From the NCBI GenBank assembly GCA_001602415.1, contig CP012155.1, positions 2,598,223 through 2,662,222 on the forward strand: a stretch of 64,000 nt of DNA. The letters run 5' to 3'. Numbering within the stretch: the first letter of the stretch is position 1; every line of letters starts with the position of its first letter. The notes beneath the pieces were generated by a model that saw only the letters and a program-made list of their open reading frames with translations, was not told the DNA's origin and ran no database searches. The position numbers and the translations under genes are program-made. Positions 1,886 through 47,151 of the stretch are shown here, piece by piece. This DNA is from Bacteroidetes bacterium UKL13-3. GTDB lineage: Bacteria; Bacteroidota; Bacteroidia; UKL13-3.

Positions 1886-2075
1886 CGTTTCGCGGCCTGA
1901 CGCAGGTGCCGGCTACGGATGGTTAATTTGTCCTGCTAAGATAAAAAATAAATGCGAAGAAAAATGCCTAGGCTACTGAATTAGCGGCACTTGCCGTTCA
2001 GACCGCTGTTACAAGCTGCCCTTATTTTCTGTCAAGTGTTGAACTGTCGATTTGTTGTACTGTCTGCGTGGGTGA

Positions 2076-2140
2076 AAGCACACTCTTTTGCAATTTTTGG
2101 TCTGTGGGTTGGCTTGTGCGAATTGCAAATGTGTGTGCTT
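2076..2140. repeat. Covarying hairpin h1 (cassette 1, left end)
   Basis: The arms are at 2076-2095 and 2121-2140 and pair except at two positions in the conserved CTCTTTTG / CAAATGTG core. The loop carries GGTCTGTG..GGCTTGTGCG, shared in part with h2, h3 and h4. It lies 60 bp after the right end of site A and 87 bp before the methyltransferase start. Function unknown. Confidence 0.75.
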
Positions 2141-2184
2141 TGTGCTGTTGGAAAATAATTCACTTTTTTCTTGTCGGTTTCGTA

Positions 2185-2226: not shown

Positions 2227-4452
2227 ATGATAAATGTAAAGTTCTACCTAGATAAAGCCGATAAAAGTAAAAGGTTTCCGATACACCTTGTTATTAGGCA
2301 AAAAGATGTCCAAGTAAAAGTTGCGACTGGTGAGAAGATTCTGAAAAAAGATTGGGATAACAAAAACCAAGTTGTCAAAGAGTCGGAATACACTTATAGG
2401 TCGATAAATAAGTTCTTGTCGTTTTTAAAGCAAGAAGTTGAAAAATATTTTGATGCCGTTCCACATTCTCAATTTACGGATAAGAAAGTCAAAGAGAAGA
2501 TTTTGTCTTTAGTTAATAGCCGAAAAGTGAATACCGATGTAAAGATGGTCTGCGAAGATTCTGCTGAATACGAAGGCAAAACAAAAACTACTTTTATCGA
2601 TTTGTTTGCTGGAGCTGGCGGATTTAGTGAAGGCTTTTTACAAGCAGAACACGGAAACAGATATTATGACTTTTTGTTAGGTAGTGATATAAATGAGAAT
2701 TGCGAGTTAACTCATCTTGCCCGATATAACTATCAACTTGGAATGGATGCAGAGTTTTTGCGTCAAGATATAACCGAACCAGATTTTTTAGATAATTTAC
2801 TAAAGAAGTTGAAAGGTCAGCAAGTTGATGTCGTTTGTGGTGGACCACCTTGTCAAAGTTTTAGTTTGGCAGGTAAACGAAAAAAGTTTGATAAGAAAGA
2901 TGATTTGTTTGCTCATTATTTAAATGTTATCCGTGTGTTACGTCCTAAGTATTTTGTAATGGAAAACGTAAAAGGAATTCTTACAAAAGAAGGTGGGAAA
3001 ATTAAGGAAATGATTTTGCAGGAAATCAAATCAATTGTTGATTTGAAAGAGTTCCATCAGTTAATCTTCTTTTTAGCCAAGCTTAGAAAGGCAGAAAGAG
3101 AAAAAGTGTTTACACTAGATTGCTACAATTTGCGAATGCAATTTGAATCAGCAAACGAAAAGGAATTAGAGAAGTTAAGAGAACATTATATTCAGATTAT
3201 CGAAAACAAATTTCGTTTATTAACTCCTAAAATTGCGGATTACAAAACAAGTAAAACAGATGTAAATATTAATACTATCCGTCACGGCTTTAATTTGCTA
3301 AAACGAAGCAAAGAACTGGCTTATGTTAGAAAGAAAGTGATTTTGGAAAAGGCTCATAGTGATTTGGATAATGATTTTTTCGCTGAAAAATTTGATTCCT
3401 TTTTAACTTCAATAGAGTCGGATTCAATAATAGAGCAAATACACGAAGCGTTTAATAATTTAAAACCTGCAAAAACATTTCAAAATGAAATTGCTGAAAT
3501 TATTTCAGCATTAGAAATTTATAATTATTCCTTTGAGGAATGTATTCAAGGGTTACAGCCATTTGTTAAGGCAGAAAAAGCAGAAAAAGAATTTGAAGAG
3601 ATTTTGTCACATATTAGATTGTATAATATAGACCAACCCTTTGTCGCCTTAGCATCAAATTATGGTGTTCCGCAAAACCGTGAAAGAGTTTTATTTATTG
3701 GCTGTCGTAAAGACCAGAAATTAGTTAAAGTTGTTCCGCCAACTGTTAGCGAGAAAGAAAAAGTTACAGTTTTTGAAGCGTTGTATGATTTAGATTTTGT
3801 TGGTAATGATGAAGAAAAATTTAATTATGAAACAATTGATTTAAAGTCGAGATACAATGGGACAACTGAAAAAATGAAAGCCTTAATTAAGAAAAGAAAT
3901 ATTGACGGAAAGCCCGATGATAAAAAAGGTTTAACATACGCTGAGTGGTCTAAAAAAGGTCGCTTAAATGGGAGATTCGCTAATTCTAAAAACCCTTTTT
4001 ACGTAAGAAGTTTTGAAGAACTTGAAAATACATTAACACACATTGTTGCTCCATTGCACAACCACAAAACAAGTAAACAAAATGATGACGTTGTAAAACG
4101 ATTAGAAGTGATTTTAAATACAGGTGGTTACGATGCAGCAAAAAAAGAACTTAAAAAAATTGGTTTGGATTCAGAGAAGCGTAATTACAATGTTTTAAAA
4201 CCAGACTCACAAAGCCCAACTGTAATGACGATACCTGACGATTACATTCATTTTTCAAGTCCAAGAGCTTTAACTGTTCGAGAAATGGCAAGATTGCAGT
4301 CCTTTGATGATTCATTTGTTTTTCAAGGAAAGCGTTCAACCGGTGGTAATAAACGTAAGTTTGAAGTACCACAATTTACATTAGTAGGTAATGCAGTTCC
4401 TCCGTTAATGGCTCGTGCTGTTGCGTTGGAAATATTAAAAAACATAAAATAA
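2227..4452 (+). CDS. DNA (cytosine-5-)-methyltransferase with N-terminal integrase-type arm domain
   Basis: This is the modification enzyme of a type II RM system and transfers a methyl group from SAM to C5 of cytosine. Residues 1-75 (INVKFYLDK ... GEKILKKDWD ... YRSINKFLSFLKQEVEKYF) resemble the arm-type DNA-binding domain that begins many Bacteroidota tyrosine recombinases. Methyltransferase motifs follow: I (FAGAGGFSEG, about 127-136), IV with the catalytic Cys (GGPPCQSFS, about 204), VI (ENVKG, about 246), VIII (QNRERVLFIG, about 482) and X (LVGNAVPP, about 718). About 230 charged residues are inserted between VI and VIII. I chose ATG 2227. The frame is open back to 2068, but that part runs through hairpin h1 and reads as non-coding. 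It heads a tight four-gene operon (gaps 5, 3 and -4 bp). The fusion is unusual; the methyltransferase call is firm. Confidence 0.9.
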   Translation: MINVKFYLDKADKSKRFPIHLVIRQKDVQVKVATGEKILKKDWDNKNQVVKESEYTYRSINKFLSFLKQEVEKYFDAVPHSQFTDKKVKEKILSLVNSRKVNTDVKMVCEDSAEYEGKTKTTFIDLFAGAGGFSEGFLQAEHGNRYYDFLLGSDINENCELTHLARYNYQLGMDAEFLRQDITEPDFLDNLLKKLKGQQVDVVCGGPPCQSFSLAGKRKKFDKKDDLFAHYLNVIRVLRPKYFVMENVKGILTKEGGKIKEMILQEIKSIVDLKEFHQLIFFLAKLRKAEREKVFTLDCYNLRMQFESANEKELEKLREHYIQIIENKFRLLTPKIADYKTSKTDVNINTIRHGFNLLKRSKELAYVRKKVILEKAHSDLDNDFFAEKFDSFLTSIESDSIIEQIHEAFNNLKPAKTFQNEIAEIISALEIYNYSFEECIQGLQPFVKAEKAEKEFEEILSHIRLYNIDQPFVALASNYGVPQNRERVLFIGCRKDQKLVKVVPPTVSEKEKVTVFEALYDLDFVGNDEEKFNYETIDLKSRYNGTTEKMKALIKKRNIDGKPDDKKGLTYAEWSKKGRLNGRFANSKNPFYVRSFEELENTLTHIVAPLHNHKTSKQNDDVVKRLEVILNTGGYDAAKKELKKIGLDSEKRNYNVLKPDSQSPTVMTIPDDYIHFSSPRALTVREMARLQSFDDSFVFQGKRSTGGNKRKFEVPQFTLVGNAVPPLMARAVALEILKNIK

Positions 4453-4457
4453 TAATT

Positions 4458-5603
4458 ATGAGCTTAAAAATCTTAGGTTACACAAAGGATTGCAGAACAG
4501 AAACACCAGTTGTTTATGCAGAAATTCTAATGAACGATTATTTGAAACTTGTCGGAACTGATTTCGATAAATTTGAAATTCAACGGAAAAGAGTTGACCC
4601 TAAAAAATACACTCGTCTAAAAGAAGATATTGCCAAAGGAGCATTGCTGCCAGGTATCACTCTTGCCATTGACCACTTAAAGGTTCATACTTACTTAGAG
4701 TATATTACTAAGCTCGATTCAGAAGGGTTAATAACGGCTTTACAACTTCATAAGGAAACAGAAGAAGCAAAAGATATTTACATCTTGGATGGCTTGCAAA
4801 GAAGTTATATAATAAAAGATTTGTCAGATGAAGGCGTTGTCTTTAAGGCAGAGCAGAAAATACTTCTTGAAATATGGTTTGAAAAGGAAATTGAACATTT
4901 AATTTATAGGCTTATTGTTCTTAATTCGGGACAAAAACCAATGTCTATGAGGCATCAGGTTGAACTTCTTTTTATGACTTTAAAAAAGGATATAGAAAAA
5001 GAAATACCTGGCTTAGAAATTTATTTAGAAAGAGAGGGAACAATAAGAAGTCACTCCAAAAAATTTCCATTTGATAGATTAGTAAATGGTTACTATAGCT
5101 TTATGACCAAAAGCCCTGAAATTGACAGGGACAACTTGGTGGTAAAGATAATGAATGAGGACGATGTACTTTCTTCAAAAGAAGAAGAGTTAAATATTTC
5201 ATACACTTCATTTATTAAATATTTAAAATTATACTGCGATATTGATGATGAATTTTATAGAATATATAACTCTCATTTAGAATTAAGTTCATTTAAGAAT
5301 TGGTTAGCAGATGAAAATACTTTGAAGGCATTTTTTGCAGCAGTTGGTAAATATGCCTCTGATGAAAAAAGAATTTTAAGGGTAGATAATGCATTGAAAA
5401 AACTTTTAGGCGAACTGAAATTAGTTTCAAGTGGTGACCCGATGTATATAGAAGAATTTAAAAAAATTAAAGGTGGGATTGATGCTAAAAAAGTCAATGT
5501 TGGTAATGGTACAAGAAAATTAATAATGGATGGTTTTAGGGAATATTTTATTGGAGAAGGCGATGAAACCTTTTTAGAATGTTGGAAAACAAGTGCAAGC
5601 TAA
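4458..5603 (+). CDS. DGxxR-motif protein (ParB/DGQHR/DUF262-like) in RM operon
   Basis: This 381-residue protein has no confident family. It carries ILDGLQRSYII near residue 108 and later NSGQKPMSMRHQVELL. These recall the DGQxR motif and following NTGQ-type helix of DGQHR (DndB-like) and DUF262 (GmrSD N-terminal, ParB-fold) proteins. Those families are associated with DNA modification or modification-dependent restriction. There is no signal peptide or membrane segment. It starts 5 bp after the methyltransferase and ends 3 bp before the next gene, so it is almost certainly co-expressed with both. A role in sensing nucleotide or DNA modification state is a guess from the motif and context. 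Confidence 0.6.
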   Translation: MSLKILGYTKDCRTETPVVYAEILMNDYLKLVGTDFDKFEIQRKRVDPKKYTRLKEDIAKGALLPGITLAIDHLKVHTYLEYITKLDSEGLITALQLHKETEEAKDIYILDGLQRSYIIKDLSDEGVVFKAEQKILLEIWFEKEIEHLIYRLIVLNSGQKPMSMRHQVELLFMTLKKDIEKEIPGLEIYLEREGTIRSHSKKFPFDRLVNGYYSFMTKSPEIDRDNLVVKIMNEDDVLSSKEEELNISYTSFIKYLKLYCDIDDEFYRIYNSHLELSSFKNWLADENTLKAFFAAVGKYASDEKRILRVDNALKKLLGELKLVSSGDPMYIEEFKKIKGGIDAKKVNVGNGTRKLIMDGFREYFIGEGDETFLECWKTSAS

Positions 5604-5606
5604 ATT

Positions 5607-6683
5607 ATGAATTTACTAGATGTTTCAACTATTATGGCAGATACGCAATCGCCTGTTACAATTACAAGCGTAACTGAATCATTGCCTTATTTGGTCATAA
5701 ATAATTATATCGCATTTAAAGTTGTCCGTATTTCAAATTCATACGACAGTACAAATCCGATTCCTATAACGCTGAATTCTGATGAAAAGGGGCTTTTGAT
5801 TTTTGTTCAATCAAAAGGTAAAATCAACTTGAATGTTATGACGGAATTTGAGTTCATCGCATATTTAACGGAAGCGGATTATATTGATTACCAAAATGGA
5901 AATGACCATGAATTCAAATCAGATTATCTGCTTATCAAAGAAACATTTCTAAGTGATTACATAAATGATTACAAGGAAACATCTTCACTTTGGGGCGGAT
6001 TTTCGCATGAACTAATCACTGGCAGCCCATTAAGTAGATATAAAAAAATTTATCCTGAAATTGTATTGGGTGAAAAGCTTAAAACACTGGATAGCCATTC
6101 TTACGAAAGTAGTGTCAGGGCAATAGAACAACCGTACGCTTTTGAGAGATTTTTAAAGTTGTATCACTTACTTGAATTGCAATTTGATTTTTTTATAATT
6201 GATAAAATTCAAAACCTTACCATACCAAGAGATTCAAACAAAATTGGCAAAATTCTGAATGAATATTCCGACAAAGAATTGCAGCGACTTACAGACTTGC
6301 TTGAATTTTTTTGTGCTGATATTGTAGCATTAGAAAAAAGGTTAGAGAAGGTAGCGTTATTTCCAACAATATCAGAAGAGATGTTTATTGATTTCGGAAA
6401 ATCAAAAAATGATATTCACTTAACTAATATTGACAAATTTAGGGATGTTGTTAATTCTGGCTCTTTTTCAAATACAAACCTTCAAACTTTAAAAGTTCCA
6501 GCAAGTAAAGACCACTCGAAATTTATCATTAATGTTACCGCATATTGGATATATAGAATGAGATGTAGCATAGCACATAATAAAATTGGCGAATATCTAT
6601 TATCATGGAATGATGAGGCGTTTATAGTTGAATTTGGAGAACCAATACTCAAAGAAGTTTTAATGCAATGTTTTAAAAAATGA
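5607..6683 (+). CDS. HEPN-like protein of unknown function in RM operon
   Basis: This 358-residue soluble protein is not recognised over most of its length. Near residue 316 it has YRMRCSIAHNKIGEY, an Rx4H motif in a helix. That is the hallmark of HEPN domains, many of which are ribonucleases in abortive-infection, toxin-antitoxin or RM-linked systems. The N-terminal half is mixed alpha/beta with no motif I can name. Its stop overlaps the start of the restriction endonuclease by 4 bp, so the two are probably translationally coupled. It could be a damage-triggered RNase backing up the RM system, or a non-catalytic partner. Only the motif and the operon position are seen. Confidence 0.55.
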   Translation: MNLLDVSTIMADTQSPVTITSVTESLPYLVINNYIAFKVVRISNSYDSTNPIPITLNSDEKGLLIFVQSKGKINLNVMTEFEFIAYLTEADYIDYQNGNDHEFKSDYLLIKETFLSDYINDYKETSSLWGGFSHELITGSPLSRYKKIYPEIVLGEKLKTLDSHSYESSVRAIEQPYAFERFLKLYHLLELQFDFFIIDKIQNLTIPRDSNKIGKILNEYSDKELQRLTDLLEFFCADIVALEKRLEKVALFPTISEEMFIDFGKSKNDIHLTNIDKFRDVVNSGSFSNTNLQTLKVPASKDHSKFIINVTAYWIYRMRCSIAHNKIGEYLLSWNDEAFIVEFGEPILKEVLMQCFKK

Positions 6684-7864
6684 GGCAATTAACAACCCTT
6701 GAAATAAATAGGATAAAACTTCTAACTGAAAAATCTGTTGAACTTTGTCTGATAGAACCAACTGGAACTGGGCTTGAAAAGTCTATTATGGATGCTACAG
6801 GTTCGGTACGAACCTATTTAAAAGCCAATAATATTCACGATTTTGAATTACAGAAACAAGGTCAAGAAAGTAAAATTCAAATTAACTCATATTTAGTCTC
6901 GTCTGATTCAATAGTAAATTCAGTTGCTTCATTATATCGCCCTAACACTAAAAAAGGTGACCCAAGAATTTGGTTTAAAGGATTGGGGTCTTACTCAAAG
7001 GCAAGCGATATTTTAGGTATAATTGCTTTTGAAAGTGATTTGTATGTTTTGAATATTACGCAACTTGATTTACATAAGTTAATTGAAAGTAAAATATCAA
7101 ATCCGCTTAAGGAATTAGTCAATGAGATAAATCAAATTTCTAATGAAGTTGCAGATGAATTATTGATACTCCTTAATAAAATTGCAGCAAAAGGACCTGT
7201 TCCTGCAATGCTTCAAGCCGATACTGCAATCGGGAGAACGCTTGAAACACTTTTAGGGATTGATATAAATTCGTCAAAAAAGCCAGATTATAAAGGCATT
7301 GAATTAAAGTCGTATCGTGATAAACGAGGAAATCGGAAAAACCTTTTTGCACAAGTTCCTGATTGGAATTTAAGCAAATTCAAAAGTTCTGCCGAAATCT
7401 TAAACGCTTTTGGATATAGTCGTGGAGATGATTTTAAATTGTATTGTACTGTTTCAACACTTGTCAGAAATTCACAAGGTTTAAAATTGAAAATGGATAG
7501 CGAAATCAGTCAGCTTATAGAAAATTCTGATAAAGCTAGTGCTGGAGATTTTGTTGTTTGGGGATTAGAAACTTTACACAAGCGTTTGCTTGAAAAACAT
7601 AATGAAACATTTTGGATTGCAGCCGATTCTGTCACTATTGGTGGCAAGGAACATTTTCAATACAAAAAAGTCGAGCACACTAAAAAACCGATTGTCTCAC
7701 AGTTCGATATATTATTAGAGCAAGGAATTATTACGCTTGACCATTTGATAAAAAGAAAGTCAACTGGAAGCGTTGTCGAGAAAGGACCCATTTTTAAAAT
7801 AAAACCGAACGCTTTGGATTTATTATTTCCACCAAGTCAATCTTACTCGTTGTTGTCGAAGTAA
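6680..7864 (+). CDS. MvaI/BcnI family type II restriction endonuclease
   Basis: This is the nuclease of the RM system. The segment AIGRTLETLLGIDIN followed by KPDYKGIELKS (about residues 200-210) is the PD-(D/E)xK-type catalytic core of the MvaI/BcnI family, with Asp, Glu and Lys in the expected order. LFAQVPDW and the C-terminal GPIFKIKPNALDLLFP also fit. Characterised relatives cut CCWGG or CCSGG. The site here cannot be read from sequence, although a cytosine-C5 partner would suit such a site. At 394 residues it is longer than the family's roughly 240. About 160 extra N-terminal residues may be a second DNA-recognition or regulatory domain. It overlaps the upstream gene by 4 bp. Confidence 0.85.
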   Translation: MRQLTTLEINRIKLLTEKSVELCLIEPTGTGLEKSIMDATGSVRTYLKANNIHDFELQKQGQESKIQINSYLVSSDSIVNSVASLYRPNTKKGDPRIWFKGLGSYSKASDILGIIAFESDLYVLNITQLDLHKLIESKISNPLKELVNEINQISNEVADELLILLNKIAAKGPVPAMLQADTAIGRTLETLLGIDINSSKKPDYKGIELKSYRDKRGNRKNLFAQVPDWNLSKFKSSAEILNAFGYSRGDDFKLYCTVSTLVRNSQGLKLKMDSEISQLIENSDKASAGDFVVWGLETLHKRLLEKHNETFWIAADSVTIGGKEHFQYKKVEHTKKPIVSQFDILLEQGIITLDHLIKRKSTGSVVEKGPIFKIKPNALDLLFPPSQSYSLLSK

Positions 7865-7892
7865 CTGTCACCAGTCTAGTGCGTTTGGAAAA

Positions 7893-7956
7893 TTTTAGCT
7901 CTTTTGGTTTTGCGAAGGTTCGCCTTGTGTGTCGGGCAAAACCAAATGTGCTAAAA
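7893..7956. repeat. Covarying hairpin h2 (cassette 1, right end)
   Basis: Arms TTTTAGCTCTTTTGG... (7893-7913) and ...CCAAATGTGCTAAAA (7936-7956) form a 21-bp stem with two mismatches, at the same TCT/TGT core positions as in h1. The loop has CGCCTTGTGTGTCGGG. It lies 29 bp after the nuclease stop. The arm sequence differs from h1 but the pairing is kept. It is followed by TTTTTTT at 7970-7976, so it might also end transcription. Confidence 0.75.
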
Positions 7957-8013
7957 TGTGCGGCTGGCTTTTTTTCTGTCGGTTGATGGTCGCACTGTCG
8001 GTCTGTTAGGGTT

Positions 8014-8297: not shown

Positions 8298-8366
8298 AAA
8301 AGCACACACTTTTGCAAGCTTTGGTCTGTGCTTGGGCTTGTGCGGCTTGCAAATGTGTGTGCTTTT
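8298..8366. repeat. Covarying hairpin h3 (cassette 2, left end)
   Basis: Arms AAAAGCACACACTTTTGC... (8298-8319) and ...GCAAATGTGTGTGCTTTT (8345-8366) form a 22-bp stem with one mismatch. Compared with h1, the apical pairs change together (AATT/AATT in h1, AAGC/GCTT here), so pairing rather than sequence is conserved. The hairpin ends 14 bp before the stop of the peptidase gene. Confidence 0.75.
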
Positions 8367-20109: not shown

Positions 20110-20174
20110 AAGTGGCTCTTTTGGCTTTGCAGAAGGGTCGGCTTGTGTGTCGGGCAAAGCCAAATGTGCCACTT
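20110..20174. repeat. Covarying hairpin h4 (cassette 2, right end)
   Basis: Arms AAGTGGCTCTTTTGGC... (20110-20130) and ...GCCAAATGTGCCACTT (20154-20174) form a 21-bp stem with the family's two-base core mismatch. The loop contains GGGTCGGCTTGTGTGTCGGG, close to that of h2. It lies between the operon promoter and site C. Confidence 0.75.
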
Positions 20175-23177: not shown

Positions 23178-23239
23178 TCGCCCTTCATTTCTGTCGTGTT
23201 GTTGTCTGTCCATTTTGGTCTGTCTTGGTGCGTTGGCTT

Positions 23240-23302
23240 GGTGGCTCTTTTGCATTTTTTGCTTGGATTAGTGCGGTTGGAAAAAAATGCAAATGTGCAA
23301 CC
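23240..23302. repeat. Covarying hairpin h5 (cassette 4, left end)
   Basis: Arms GGTGGCTCTTTTGCATTTTTT (from 23240) and AAAAAAATGCAAATGTGCAACC (to 23302) pair with the same CTCTTTTG/CAAATGTG core as h1-h4 plus one bulge. It ends 12 bp before the stop of the PLD nuclease gene. Confidence 0.7.
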
Positions 23303-23313
23303 AAATGTGTTGG

Positions 23314-44406: not shown

Positions 44407-45024
44407 TTAATCTTCTGTGCGCAATACGTCAAATAAATCATTCAACTCATCGAAATCTTTCATGCCTGCTTTTTCCTCAGTACCCCCAACTAAGTTTATT
44501 CCAAAGGGTTTAAAAGAGGATAGGATATTAAGCACATTCCCGGTATTGAGTTGCAATCCCCAAATAAGTTGATGCGATTGACACAAGGATACCAATTGAT
44601 CGCAATCATATGTTTCTGTTTCCGAATCGGCATACACATGAAAAGCATCAGCCACTTTTTCATAAGCCGTAATCGCGTGCTGTAACTTCTCTTTGGTGAA
44701 CACATTTACGTTAACTTTTTTGATAATAGGTTTACCCAAACTTAGTAACTCATCGGGCAAAAATGTATTGTTTACTTCAATTACATCTACGTTTAACAAC
44801 TCGCTAATATCCCGAATTTCCTCCAAGGATTGGTTCCCAAATTCCGCAACTACCGAGCTTCCCGTAACCCAATCAATAATTTCCTTGGCCTTGATTGGAG
44901 TGATGTAATGTTCGTTCATCGGATCAAAACAAAATCCGATATAGGTTGCACCAGCCGCTGCTGCAAAACGTGCATCACTTAAATTGGTGATATTACCCAG
45001 CTTAATATTGGTTTGAAAACTCAT
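44407..45024 (-). CDS. TrpF-like (phosphoribosylanthranilate isomerase fold) protein without usual catalytic residues
   Basis: The start was moved to ATG 45024 (MSFQTNIKLGNITNLSDARF), where similarity to TrpF begins; upstream residues read as leader. At 205 residues it has the TrpF barrel: ITNLSDARFAAAAGATYIGFCF, then GLQLNTGNVLNILSSFKPFGINLVGG and KAGMKDFDELNDLFDVL near the C-terminus, matching the phosphate-binding end. However, the KICG motif with the catalytic Cys is KLGN here, and the LLD motif with the catalytic Asp is not recognisable (FHVYADSE). No other trp gene is nearby. It is probably a relative with another or lost function. Confidence 0.7.
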   Translation of the reverse strand: MSFQTNIKLGNITNLSDARFAAAAGATYIGFCFDPMNEHYITPIKAKEIIDWVTGSSVVAEFGNQSLEEIRDISELLNVDVIEVNNTFLPDELLSLGKPIIKKVNVNVFTKEKLQHAITAYEKVADAFHVYADSETETYDCDQLVSLCQSHQLIWGLQLNTGNVLNILSSFKPFGINLVGGTEEKAGMKDFDELNDLFDVLRTED

Positions 45025-45121
45025 GGCGCAAAGATAAGATGATATATTCATTGGTTGATATTTTATACCCATTACAATGTAAAAACAGCCCGATATATTA
45101 ATAAACGTAATGAGTGATCCC

Positions 45122-45750
45122 AACTACTCGCTGCAACTCAAACTACTTCTGTTAAAATCTGTGGCGATTATTTGTTTCCCGCAGATTGCGCTGATGAACG
45201 CAGATTTAGTTTTAAATTTGTGTAATCAGCGGATTTAACTACTCGCTGCAACTCAAACTACTTCTGTTAAAATCTGTGGCGATTATTTGTTTCCCGCAGA
45301 TTGCGCTGATGAACGCAGATTTAGTTTTAAATTTGTGTAATCAGCGGATTTAACTACTCGCTACAACTCAAACTACTTCTATGAAAATCTGTGGCTATTA
45401 TTTGTTTCCCGCAGATTGCGCTGATGAACGCAGATTTAGTTTTAAATTTGTGTAATCAGCGGATTTAACTACTCGCTACAACTCAAACTACTTCTATGAA
45501 AATCTGTGGCTATTATTTGTTTCCCGCAGATTGCGCTGATGAACGCAGATTTAGTTTTAAATTTGTGTAATCAGCGGCTTTAACTACTCGCTACAACTCA
45601 AACTACTTCTATGAAAATCTGTGGCTATTATTTGTTTCCCGCAGATTGCGCTGATGATTGCAGATTTAGTTTTAAATTTGTGTAATCAGCGGATTTAACT
45701 ACTCGCTACAACTCAAACTACTTCTATGAAAATCTGTGGCGATTCCTCAA
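45122..45750. repeat. Tandem array of a 115-bp repeat, about 5.5 copies
   Basis: Units begin with AACTACTCGCT at 45122, 45237, 45352, 45467, 45582 and 45697, exactly 115 bp apart; the last is partial and ends near 45740 at AATCTGTGGCGATT. Each unit contains CCCGCAGATTGCGCTGATGA, AATTTGTGTAATCAGCGG and AAATCTGTGGCGATT, which partly complement one another and could fold. Copies differ at a few positions (CTGCAACTC/CTACAACTC, TGTTAAAA/TATGAAAA, one GATGATTG). No gene lies in 45025-45777. Similar AATCTGTG..AATCAGCGG intergenic repeats are common in Bacteroidota. Confidence 0.95.
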
Positions 45751-45777
45751 TAAAAAAACGATATTGCTCCTCCATTT

Positions 45778-47151
45778 ATGTATGCTATTGTAGATATTGA
45801 AACCACCGGAGGCCATGCCAATTCAAACGGAATCACGGAAATTGCCATTTATATTTTTGATGGCGACAAAGTAGTTGATGAATTTGTTTCACTTGTTAAT
45901 CCGCAATACCCCATTCCTCCTTTTTTGGAGAGTTATACTGGCATCACCAACCAAATGGTGCAACGTGCTCCTAAGTTTAACCAAATTGCACCAAAGGTTT
46001 TCGAACTGCTTAAAGACAATATTTTTATTGCCCACAACGTAAACTTCGACTATTCATTTATTCATTATCAGTTACAACAAAACGGATTCGATCTCAACAC
46101 TGATAAACTTTGCACAGTAAGGTTGAGCCGAAAAGTGTTTCCCGGATATAAATCATACAGCCTTGGAAATATTTGCGGAGCGTTGGGTATTCCCGTTCAT
46201 AACAGGCACCGTGCAGCGGGTGATGCTATTGCTACTGTGAAACTTTTTCACAAAATACTGCAAGCAGATGATGGTTCTATCCTCAAAGGATTTTTGAAAA
46301 AAGGCTCAAAAGAATATTTGTTACCTCCTAATTTACCAAGGGAACAATTTGATACCTTATCACAACAAACAGGTGTGTATTATTTTCATGATGGCCAAGG
46401 GAAAGTAATTTATGTTGGCAAGGCTAAAAATATCAAAAAACGTGTTGGCTCACATTTTACAGGAAACGGAACTGGCAAACAAAAACAAGATTTTTTACGC
46501 AATATTCATGGTTTATCTTTTACCGCATGTGCAACGGAGTTGATGGCTTATATTTTAGAATCGGTTGAAATAAAGAAACACTGGCCTCCCTTTAACCGTG
46601 CCCTTAAAAAAGTAGATTTTAACTTTGCCATTTATGATTACGTTGATCGAAATGATTATGTGCGATTATGCGTTGACCGCATCCGTAAAAACATGATTCC
46701 ATTACACACCTACCGCACACAAGTTGAAGCCATACAAGCATTGCAACACGTAATTATGCAACACGAGCTATGTCCAAAATTGTGTTATGTAAACACAGGC
46801 AAAGAACCTTGTAGCACCTTTGAATCGAGCTGCTGCAAAGGAGCTTGCGAGTTAAGAGAAAATGCAATTGACTATAACAAACGAGTAGCTTCTGCCATTA
46901 ACGAACTGAGTAATAAAGAATCATATGCCTTAATTGATAAAGGACTTTATGCTGATGAGAACAGTTGCATTTTAATTGAAAAAGGAAAGTTTATTGGCAT
47001 GGGATATTTACCAATTGATGCGGGCATTCATGATTTGGAAACGGTAAAATCATTTATCAAACTCCATAAAGAAAGCTTTTACATAAAGGATATTTTACAA
47101 AGTGAAAGCCTACTCACCTCAACCAAGCGCATTGATTTTATTAACGCATAA
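45778..47151 (+). CDS. DEDD exonuclease fused to GIY-YIG nuclease domain
   Basis: This 457-residue fusion begins with a DnaQ-like 3'-5' exonuclease (residues 1-165: DIETTGG with the first Asp/Glu, AHNVNFDYSF with the second Asp, HRAAGDA with the His and last Asp). A UvrC/Cho-like GIY-YIG nuclease follows (about 200-290: GVYYFHDGQGKVIYVGKAKNIKKRV and a catalytic Glu in AYILESVEIKK). The C-terminal third has a Cys cluster (CPKLCYVNTGKEPCSTFESSCCKGAC) and is less conserved. The family is known in bacteria and is presumed to act in DNA repair, with incision and resection in one chain. It stands alone, rightward, just after the 115-bp repeat array. Confidence 0.88.
   Translation: MYAIVDIETTGGHANSNGITEIAIYIFDGDKVVDEFVSLVNPQYPIPPFLESYTGITNQMVQRAPKFNQIAPKVFELLKDNIFIAHNVNFDYSFIHYQLQQNGFDLNTDKLCTVRLSRKVFPGYKSYSLGNICGALGIPVHNRHRAAGDAIATVKLFHKILQADDGSILKGFLKKGSKEYLLPPNLPREQFDTLSQQTGVYYFHDGQGKVIYVGKAKNIKKRVGSHFTGNGTGKQKQDFLRNIHGLSFTACATELMAYILESVEIKKHWPPFNRALKKVDFNFAIYDYVDRNDYVRLCVDRIRKNMIPLHTYRTQVEAIQALQHVIMQHELCPKLCYVNTGKEPCSTFESSCCKGACELRENAIDYNKRVASAINELSNKESYALIDKGLYADENSCILIEKGKFIGMGYLPIDAGIHDLETVKSFIKLHKESFYIKDILQSESLLTSTKRIDFINA

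Follow-up and report, generated by a model that had tools for sequence, protein, structure and literature searches.

For restriction–modification (R-M) genes, protection of a naive host has to precede the action of the nuclease, and the known solutions are C proteins, promoter methylation and a helix-turn-helix carried on the methylase. At the level of transcription, the three controls described are C proteins, methylation of the promoter and binding of the methyltransferase (MTase) to a separate operator (PMC3978073; PMC3874152). M.SsoII represses its own gene via an N-terminal region with a predicted helix-turn-helix (PMC3978073; PMC3874152), and M.EcoRII represses itself via an N-terminal helix-turn-helix (PMC3874152). 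The integrase IntS of the prophage KplE1 is likewise self-repressing, since the sites to which it binds overlap with the int promoter (PMC2951348). In the present study, we analysed a 64000 nt stretch of DNA from Bacteroidetes bacterium UKL13-3 (hereafter the window), which carries a 741-residue ORF with an ATG start at positions 2227-4452 of the forward strand. Our analysis makes it probable that this ORF encodes a Type II R-M MTase in which a tyrosine-recombinase arm domain would serve as a built-in repressor of its own operon, acting via GTCCG boxes. Autorepression of the whole operon is proposed because a direct-repeat site overlaps the promoter of an MTase that itself has a recombinase arm, a combination of the M.SsoII and IntS ideas. 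A limited literature search found no paper describing a fusion of an arm domain and a methylase, which is not proof that none exists.

A preliminary description of the locus had proposed an integrase-type arm-binding domain in residues 1-75, placed before a complete C5 MTase with a further insert of approximately 230 residues. The protein (2227-4452, +) matched PF00145 outside the arm region with an E value of 6.4e-52, and the C5 motifs were complete: I (125-137), IV (PCQ, 205-216), VI (ENV, 245-250), VIII (483-488), IX (685-693) and X (721-726). With these conserved motifs and a nuclease partner nearby (MvaI_BcnI, E value 1.1e-73), the enzyme belongs with the Type II C5 MTases. The insert was also found, between motifs VI and VIII, although its length was nearer 200 residues than 230 (approximately 270-470; 3034-3636, +, delimited by the motif positions and the predicted model), and it was all-helical in that model. 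The full-length model was only moderately confident (pLDDT 69.5), with a poor target-recognition region.

The arm domain comprises residues 1-103 (2227-2535, +). PF17293 (Arm-DNA-bind_5) matched residues 9-76 with an E value of 6.7e-5 and 23.8 bits against the whole MTase, above the curated cutoff of 22.6, and with 1.2e-6 and 29.4 bits against residues 1-100 alone, where no other Pfam profile passed its cutoff and no N-terminal helix-turn-helix was detected. The same family was matched by 37 of 38 diverse relatives of the MTase (E up to 0.01; best E value 2.4e-11). Conversely, a profile built from the MTase arms retrieved tyrosine recombinases in a search of 198 genomes with E values down to 6.5e-14, and all ten of those checked contained PF17293, Phage_int_SAM_5 and Phage_integrase, the last falling below the cutoff in L217. 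A Phage_integrase catalytic domain gave no Pfam match in the 741-residue protein at E values up to 10. With a pLDDT of ~82, the arm was predicted to fold as three strands and two helices. In structure comparison it resembled phage integrases, as three of them were the only Foldseek matches below 1e-3 in a viral library; Foldseek against the PDB gave no significant match, and the arm profile run against PDB sequences returned only spurious ankyrin-type matches. The arm-domain assignment withstood the profile search, in which a lack of similarity would have spoken against it. Sequence comparison confirms that the fusion is real, and the domain would be expected to bind arm-type DNA sites.

Immediately 5' of the ATG, at positions 2188-2222, we found the sequence GTCCGTAAATTTGTCCGTGTCCGTAAAAATGTCCG, a candidate operator on the forward strand with four direct GTCCG boxes (2188-2192, 2200-2204, 2206-2210 and 2218-2222). 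It consists of two 18-nt units with the GTCCG boxes 12 nt apart inside each. The first unit precedes 77 of 78 family members, in 76 at no fewer than 17 of 20 positions and in L073 at 16; approximately 64 members have both units, approximately 14 only one and L005 none. Across 22 non-redundant members, the core columns carried ~1.4-2 bits, compared with ~0.02-0.5 bits, mostly near 0.1, for the columns 35-60 nt upstream, and the element is thus sharply bounded by unconserved DNA. A conserved leader peptide was considered and rejected: the reading frame is open back to 2068, but the distance from the element to the ATG varies across relatives in all three reading phases, so the element is not coding.

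The boxes are single-copy in the source genome, in the MTase leader only, and the next-best places are scattered and have at least one mismatch. In 296 genomes, the exact 17-mer occurred three times, in each case 38-44 nt 5' of an MTase gene with the arm domain. A lax pattern applied to 395 genomes gave five AT-rich matches, all of them before the five arm-bearing MTases that had been found independently by protein profile, and 20 other matches that look like chance. The genomes with the fusion and the genomes with the element were the same five of 395. None of the loci of 77 relatives contained a second GTCCG-N7-GTCCG, and GTCCG was absent from the 150 nt upstream of the arm-less C5 MTases examined. 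These included L283, which has the insert and shows no arm, a single case with an uncertain gene start. Exact matches of the element in viral contigs were followed up and rejected, as all 12 were unrelated and none stood at an MTase leader.

The conserved element overlaps the predicted promoter of the MTase gene. The Bacteroidota promoter consensus has TTTG at -33 and TAnnTTTG at -7 (PMC6847099; PMC2483708). Between boxes 1 and 2, a putative -7 element TAAATTTG (2193-2200, +) fits TAnnTTTG and is nearly invariant in the family; 19 nt before it lies a putative -33 element TTG (2171-2173, +), assigned from its sequence, the Bacteroidota consensus and its enrichment in relatives, since a triplet of T, T or G, and G is enriched at this place in the 22 non-redundant members. 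We therefore regard TTG-N19-TAAATTTG as a putative Bacteroidota-type promoter of the MTase gene, with a transcript start predicted near 2205 when the G of TTTG is counted as -5. Relative to this promoter, box 1 falls within the spacer and box 2 where the -7 element ends; boxes 3 and 4 are inside a predicted leader of ~22 nt.

Direct repeats of similar spacing were found before genes of a different catalytic type. For 78 arm-domain ORFs from sampled genomes, mostly of 390-440 residues, the 120 nt preceding the start codon were examined for exact direct repeats; this set was collected with the MTase-arm profile, which may favour closer arms, and the catalytic domain was checked in part of it. 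Repeats of 8 nt or more occurred at a lag of 12 in 24 ORFs, at 11 in nine and at 10 in seven, with few elsewhere. A base-shuffled control averaged under one for runs of 7 nt or more at lags 11 and 12, and among 460 other genes from the MTase loci such a repeat was present at lag 12 in one and at lag 11 in one. In the arm-bearing MTases, a lag-12 repeat of at least 8 nt was seen in 54 of 78, and of at least 6 nt in 77. The repeats before the recombinases differ in sequence from lineage to lineage, and in the 395 genomes no recombinase was preceded by the exact GTCCG box sequence; thus the MTases and recombinases share the spacing and position of the repeats, not their sequence. This sharing of repeat spacing between arm-domain genes with unrelated catalytic parts provides the best indirect support for reading of the boxes by the arm domain. 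Examples of recombinase ORFs with upstream repeat pairs 11-12 nt apart are L165, L167, L182, L187 and L189. Such repeats could function as arms of an attachment site, as operators or as both; they suggest that self-regulation through the arm domain may be widespread among Bacteroidota integrases, and might assist in finding the arm sites of these enzymes.

The preliminary description had pointed to other MTases with the same fusion as a check, and at least 157 relatives were found in Bacteroidota in one scan, every complete one having the arm. The 80 loci retained from these were mostly 58-97% identical in the best segment, came from records of Bacteroidota members or metagenome-assembled genomes, and covered essentially all of residues 1-741 apart from a few cut by a contig end. 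Only five of the 395 genomes sampled across the phylum had such a gene, a widespread yet sparse occurrence as expected for a horizontally moving defence gene. In a tree of 72 arm sequences, which rests on a short alignment, all 20 MTase arms fell on one side of a branch with 100/99 support, which is most simply explained if the fusion arose once. The family is old. Arm sequences of the two MTase subfamilies are strongly different (33-40% identity), with Y7, L8, D9, P18, I19, L21, K31, K37 and N61 invariant. Since the subfamily arms differ while the boxes hardly change, the residues that contact DNA should be among these nine.

Behind the MTase gene, on the same strand, are genes for the Dazbog defence proteins DzbA (4458-5603; PADLOC E value 4.4e-103) and DzbB (5607-6683; 4.8e-47), which are adjacent as in Dazbog systems (4458-6683), and for an MvaI/BcnI-type restriction endonuclease, the partner of the MTase (6680-7864; PF15515, 1.1e-73). 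A second defence system is placed behind the same putative promoter as the methylase. The DzbA/DzbB pair lies 3' of the MTase in the window and in six relatives (L010, L034, L044, L060, L070 and L074), and a co-directional MvaI/BcnI-type nuclease lies 3' of the MTase in 46 of the 80 loci, mostly within 20 nt. Elsewhere, L022 has an EcoRII-C nuclease as the neighbour, L033 one of the Mrr type, and L049, L053, L058 and L072 a pair with a GmrSD_N protein 3' of the MTase. In another group, the nuclease is replaced by a convergent protein of ~313 residues (L008, 10223-11164, reverse strand; similar ORFs in L017, L025, L028, L037, L038, L042 and L047), which has no Pfam match and is possibly an unrecognized restriction endonuclease family. 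The constant part is the MTase with its leader, the genes behind it vary, and the gap between the methylase and nuclease genes resembles a hotspot at which additional defence modules are found.

Both MvaI and EcoRII cut CCWGG. In the loci with an MvaI-type nuclease, CCWGG was the most avoided palindromic pentamer tested (556 occurrences compared with 897 expected), and this avoidance, together with the MvaI/BcnI- or EcoRII-C-like partners, makes CCWGG the likely target of the MTase as judged from sequence. As a separate observation, the pentamer CGNCG was absent from the 64-kb window (1-64000), compared with ~48 occurrences expected from the CG content, and from ~94 kb of other genome pieces (L001 and L098-L127), some of which overlap the window; it is possibly avoided genome-wide.

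The genome also contains a dispersed family of hyphenated palindromes of 50-70 nt, GCTCTTTTG-N28-56-CAAATGTG, in co-oriented clusters a few kb apart, with 24 exact copies compared with none for a reversed-pattern control. Five copies lie in the window (2075-2141, 7892-7957, 8298-8366, 20110-20174 and 23238-23304), and the other copies in the same genome are L259-L282. These hairpins resemble attC-like cassette ends, and the operon of MTase, Dazbog and nuclease is placed between two of them. A tandem array with a 115-nt period, its inner copies 94-96% alike, was observed at 44992-45859.

The preliminary description had offered two uses for the arm domain: binding of a separate DNA site for self-control, and a link between modification and mobility. 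For the latter, the domain would bind sites of cassettes or mobile elements and couple modification to recombination; its recombinase origin and the two flanking hairpins would fit such a role. However, the boxes are single-copy and located in the promoter, none of the cassette-type hairpins scanned in the source genome contained GTCCG, the viral matches of the element were unrelated, and a matching hairpin was near the gene in only five of 77 relatives, compared with boxes in 77 of 78 members. With a recombinase catalytic domain also lacking, the proposed link was not borne out, and we regard a mobility function of the arm as highly improbable. The operon itself may well be mobile, being between two hairpins in a cassette-like array, but nothing ties the arm domain to that mobility. 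The self-control part fared better, as the family-specific repeat lies over the gene's own promoter with recombinase-like spacing, which points to a separate site that the arm would bind. It is unlikely that another protein reads the boxes, or that they belong to an unusual promoter or mRNA leader while the arm does other work, such as general DNA binding. The domain and the site are linked by association, and the element contains promoter sequence that would be conserved anyway, yet the GTCCG boxes are absent from the promoter consensus, they co-occur one to one with the arm domain in 395 genomes, and repeats at the 12-nt spacing are also seen before other arm-domain genes whose catalytic part is unrelated.

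If the arm does bind the boxes, its effect might instead be to activate, or to activate or repress depending on how many boxes are present. The first two boxes are invariant and boxes 3 and 4 are lost in some members, so the two units could differ in role, and M.SsoII represses its own gene yet stimulates the nuclease gene (PMC3978073). We consider this reading quite unlikely, as the unit that never varies spans the -7 element and the predicted start, where repressing sites are typically placed. Some observations also weigh against self-repression itself: the arms diverge between subfamilies far more than the boxes do, approximately 14 members make do with a single 18-nt unit and L005 with none, and the promoter was assigned from a consensus.

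Under self-repression, the methylase would be made fast on entry into a new, unmethylated host. As free MTase accumulates, its arm domain would bind the GTCCG boxes, and the bound boxes, flanking and overlapping the -7 element and predicted start, would block RNA polymerase and turn the operon down. If one transcript runs from the methylase through the nuclease gene, methylase, Dazbog and nuclease would later be held at a low steady level. The arm domain was probably derived from a recombinase whose gene was already preceded by repeats of this kind. We lean, with less assurance than for self-repression, towards the view that the arm domain and the promoter-overlapping repeat form a portable module for self-repression that stems from mobile elements. 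A restriction MTase would have acquired domain and site together, in a single event and in place of the usual helix-turn-helix, and would then have spread through Bacteroidota while the nucleases and additional defence systems behind it were exchanged. If true, this would add a further, integrase-derived class of regulator for R-M systems, one whose site is defined and very highly conserved.

Like M.SsoII, M.Ecl18kI, M.EcoRII, M.ScrFIA and M.MspI, the present MTase is a C5 methylase that has, in addition, a DNA-binding region at its N-terminus and a putative operator over its own promoter, and its target is likely to be related to those of the M.SsoII group (CCNGG/CCWGG). However, that group uses a helix-turn-helix, with a 15-bp quasi-palindrome in M.SsoII (PMC3978073), whereas an arm domain and direct repeats are found here, and self-repression, proven for that group, is proposed for the arm-bearing MTase. 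The locus also resembles intS of KplE1, where integrase sites, arm-type ones included, lie over the promoter that drives the integrase gene itself (PMC2951348); IntS, however, is a recombinase whose sites are part of an attachment site, whereas here the catalytic part is that of a methylase and nothing indicates an attachment site. With the Bacteroidota Arm-DNA-bind_5 tyrosine recombinases, it shares a homologous N-terminal domain and, as in many of them, repeats 11-12 nt apart before the gene, but it lacks the recombinase catalytic domain and its box sequence differs. Fusion of a regulator to an R-M enzyme is also seen in CR.NsoJS138I, in which a C protein is carried on the nuclease (PMC3850674), whereas in the present family an arm domain is carried on the methylase.
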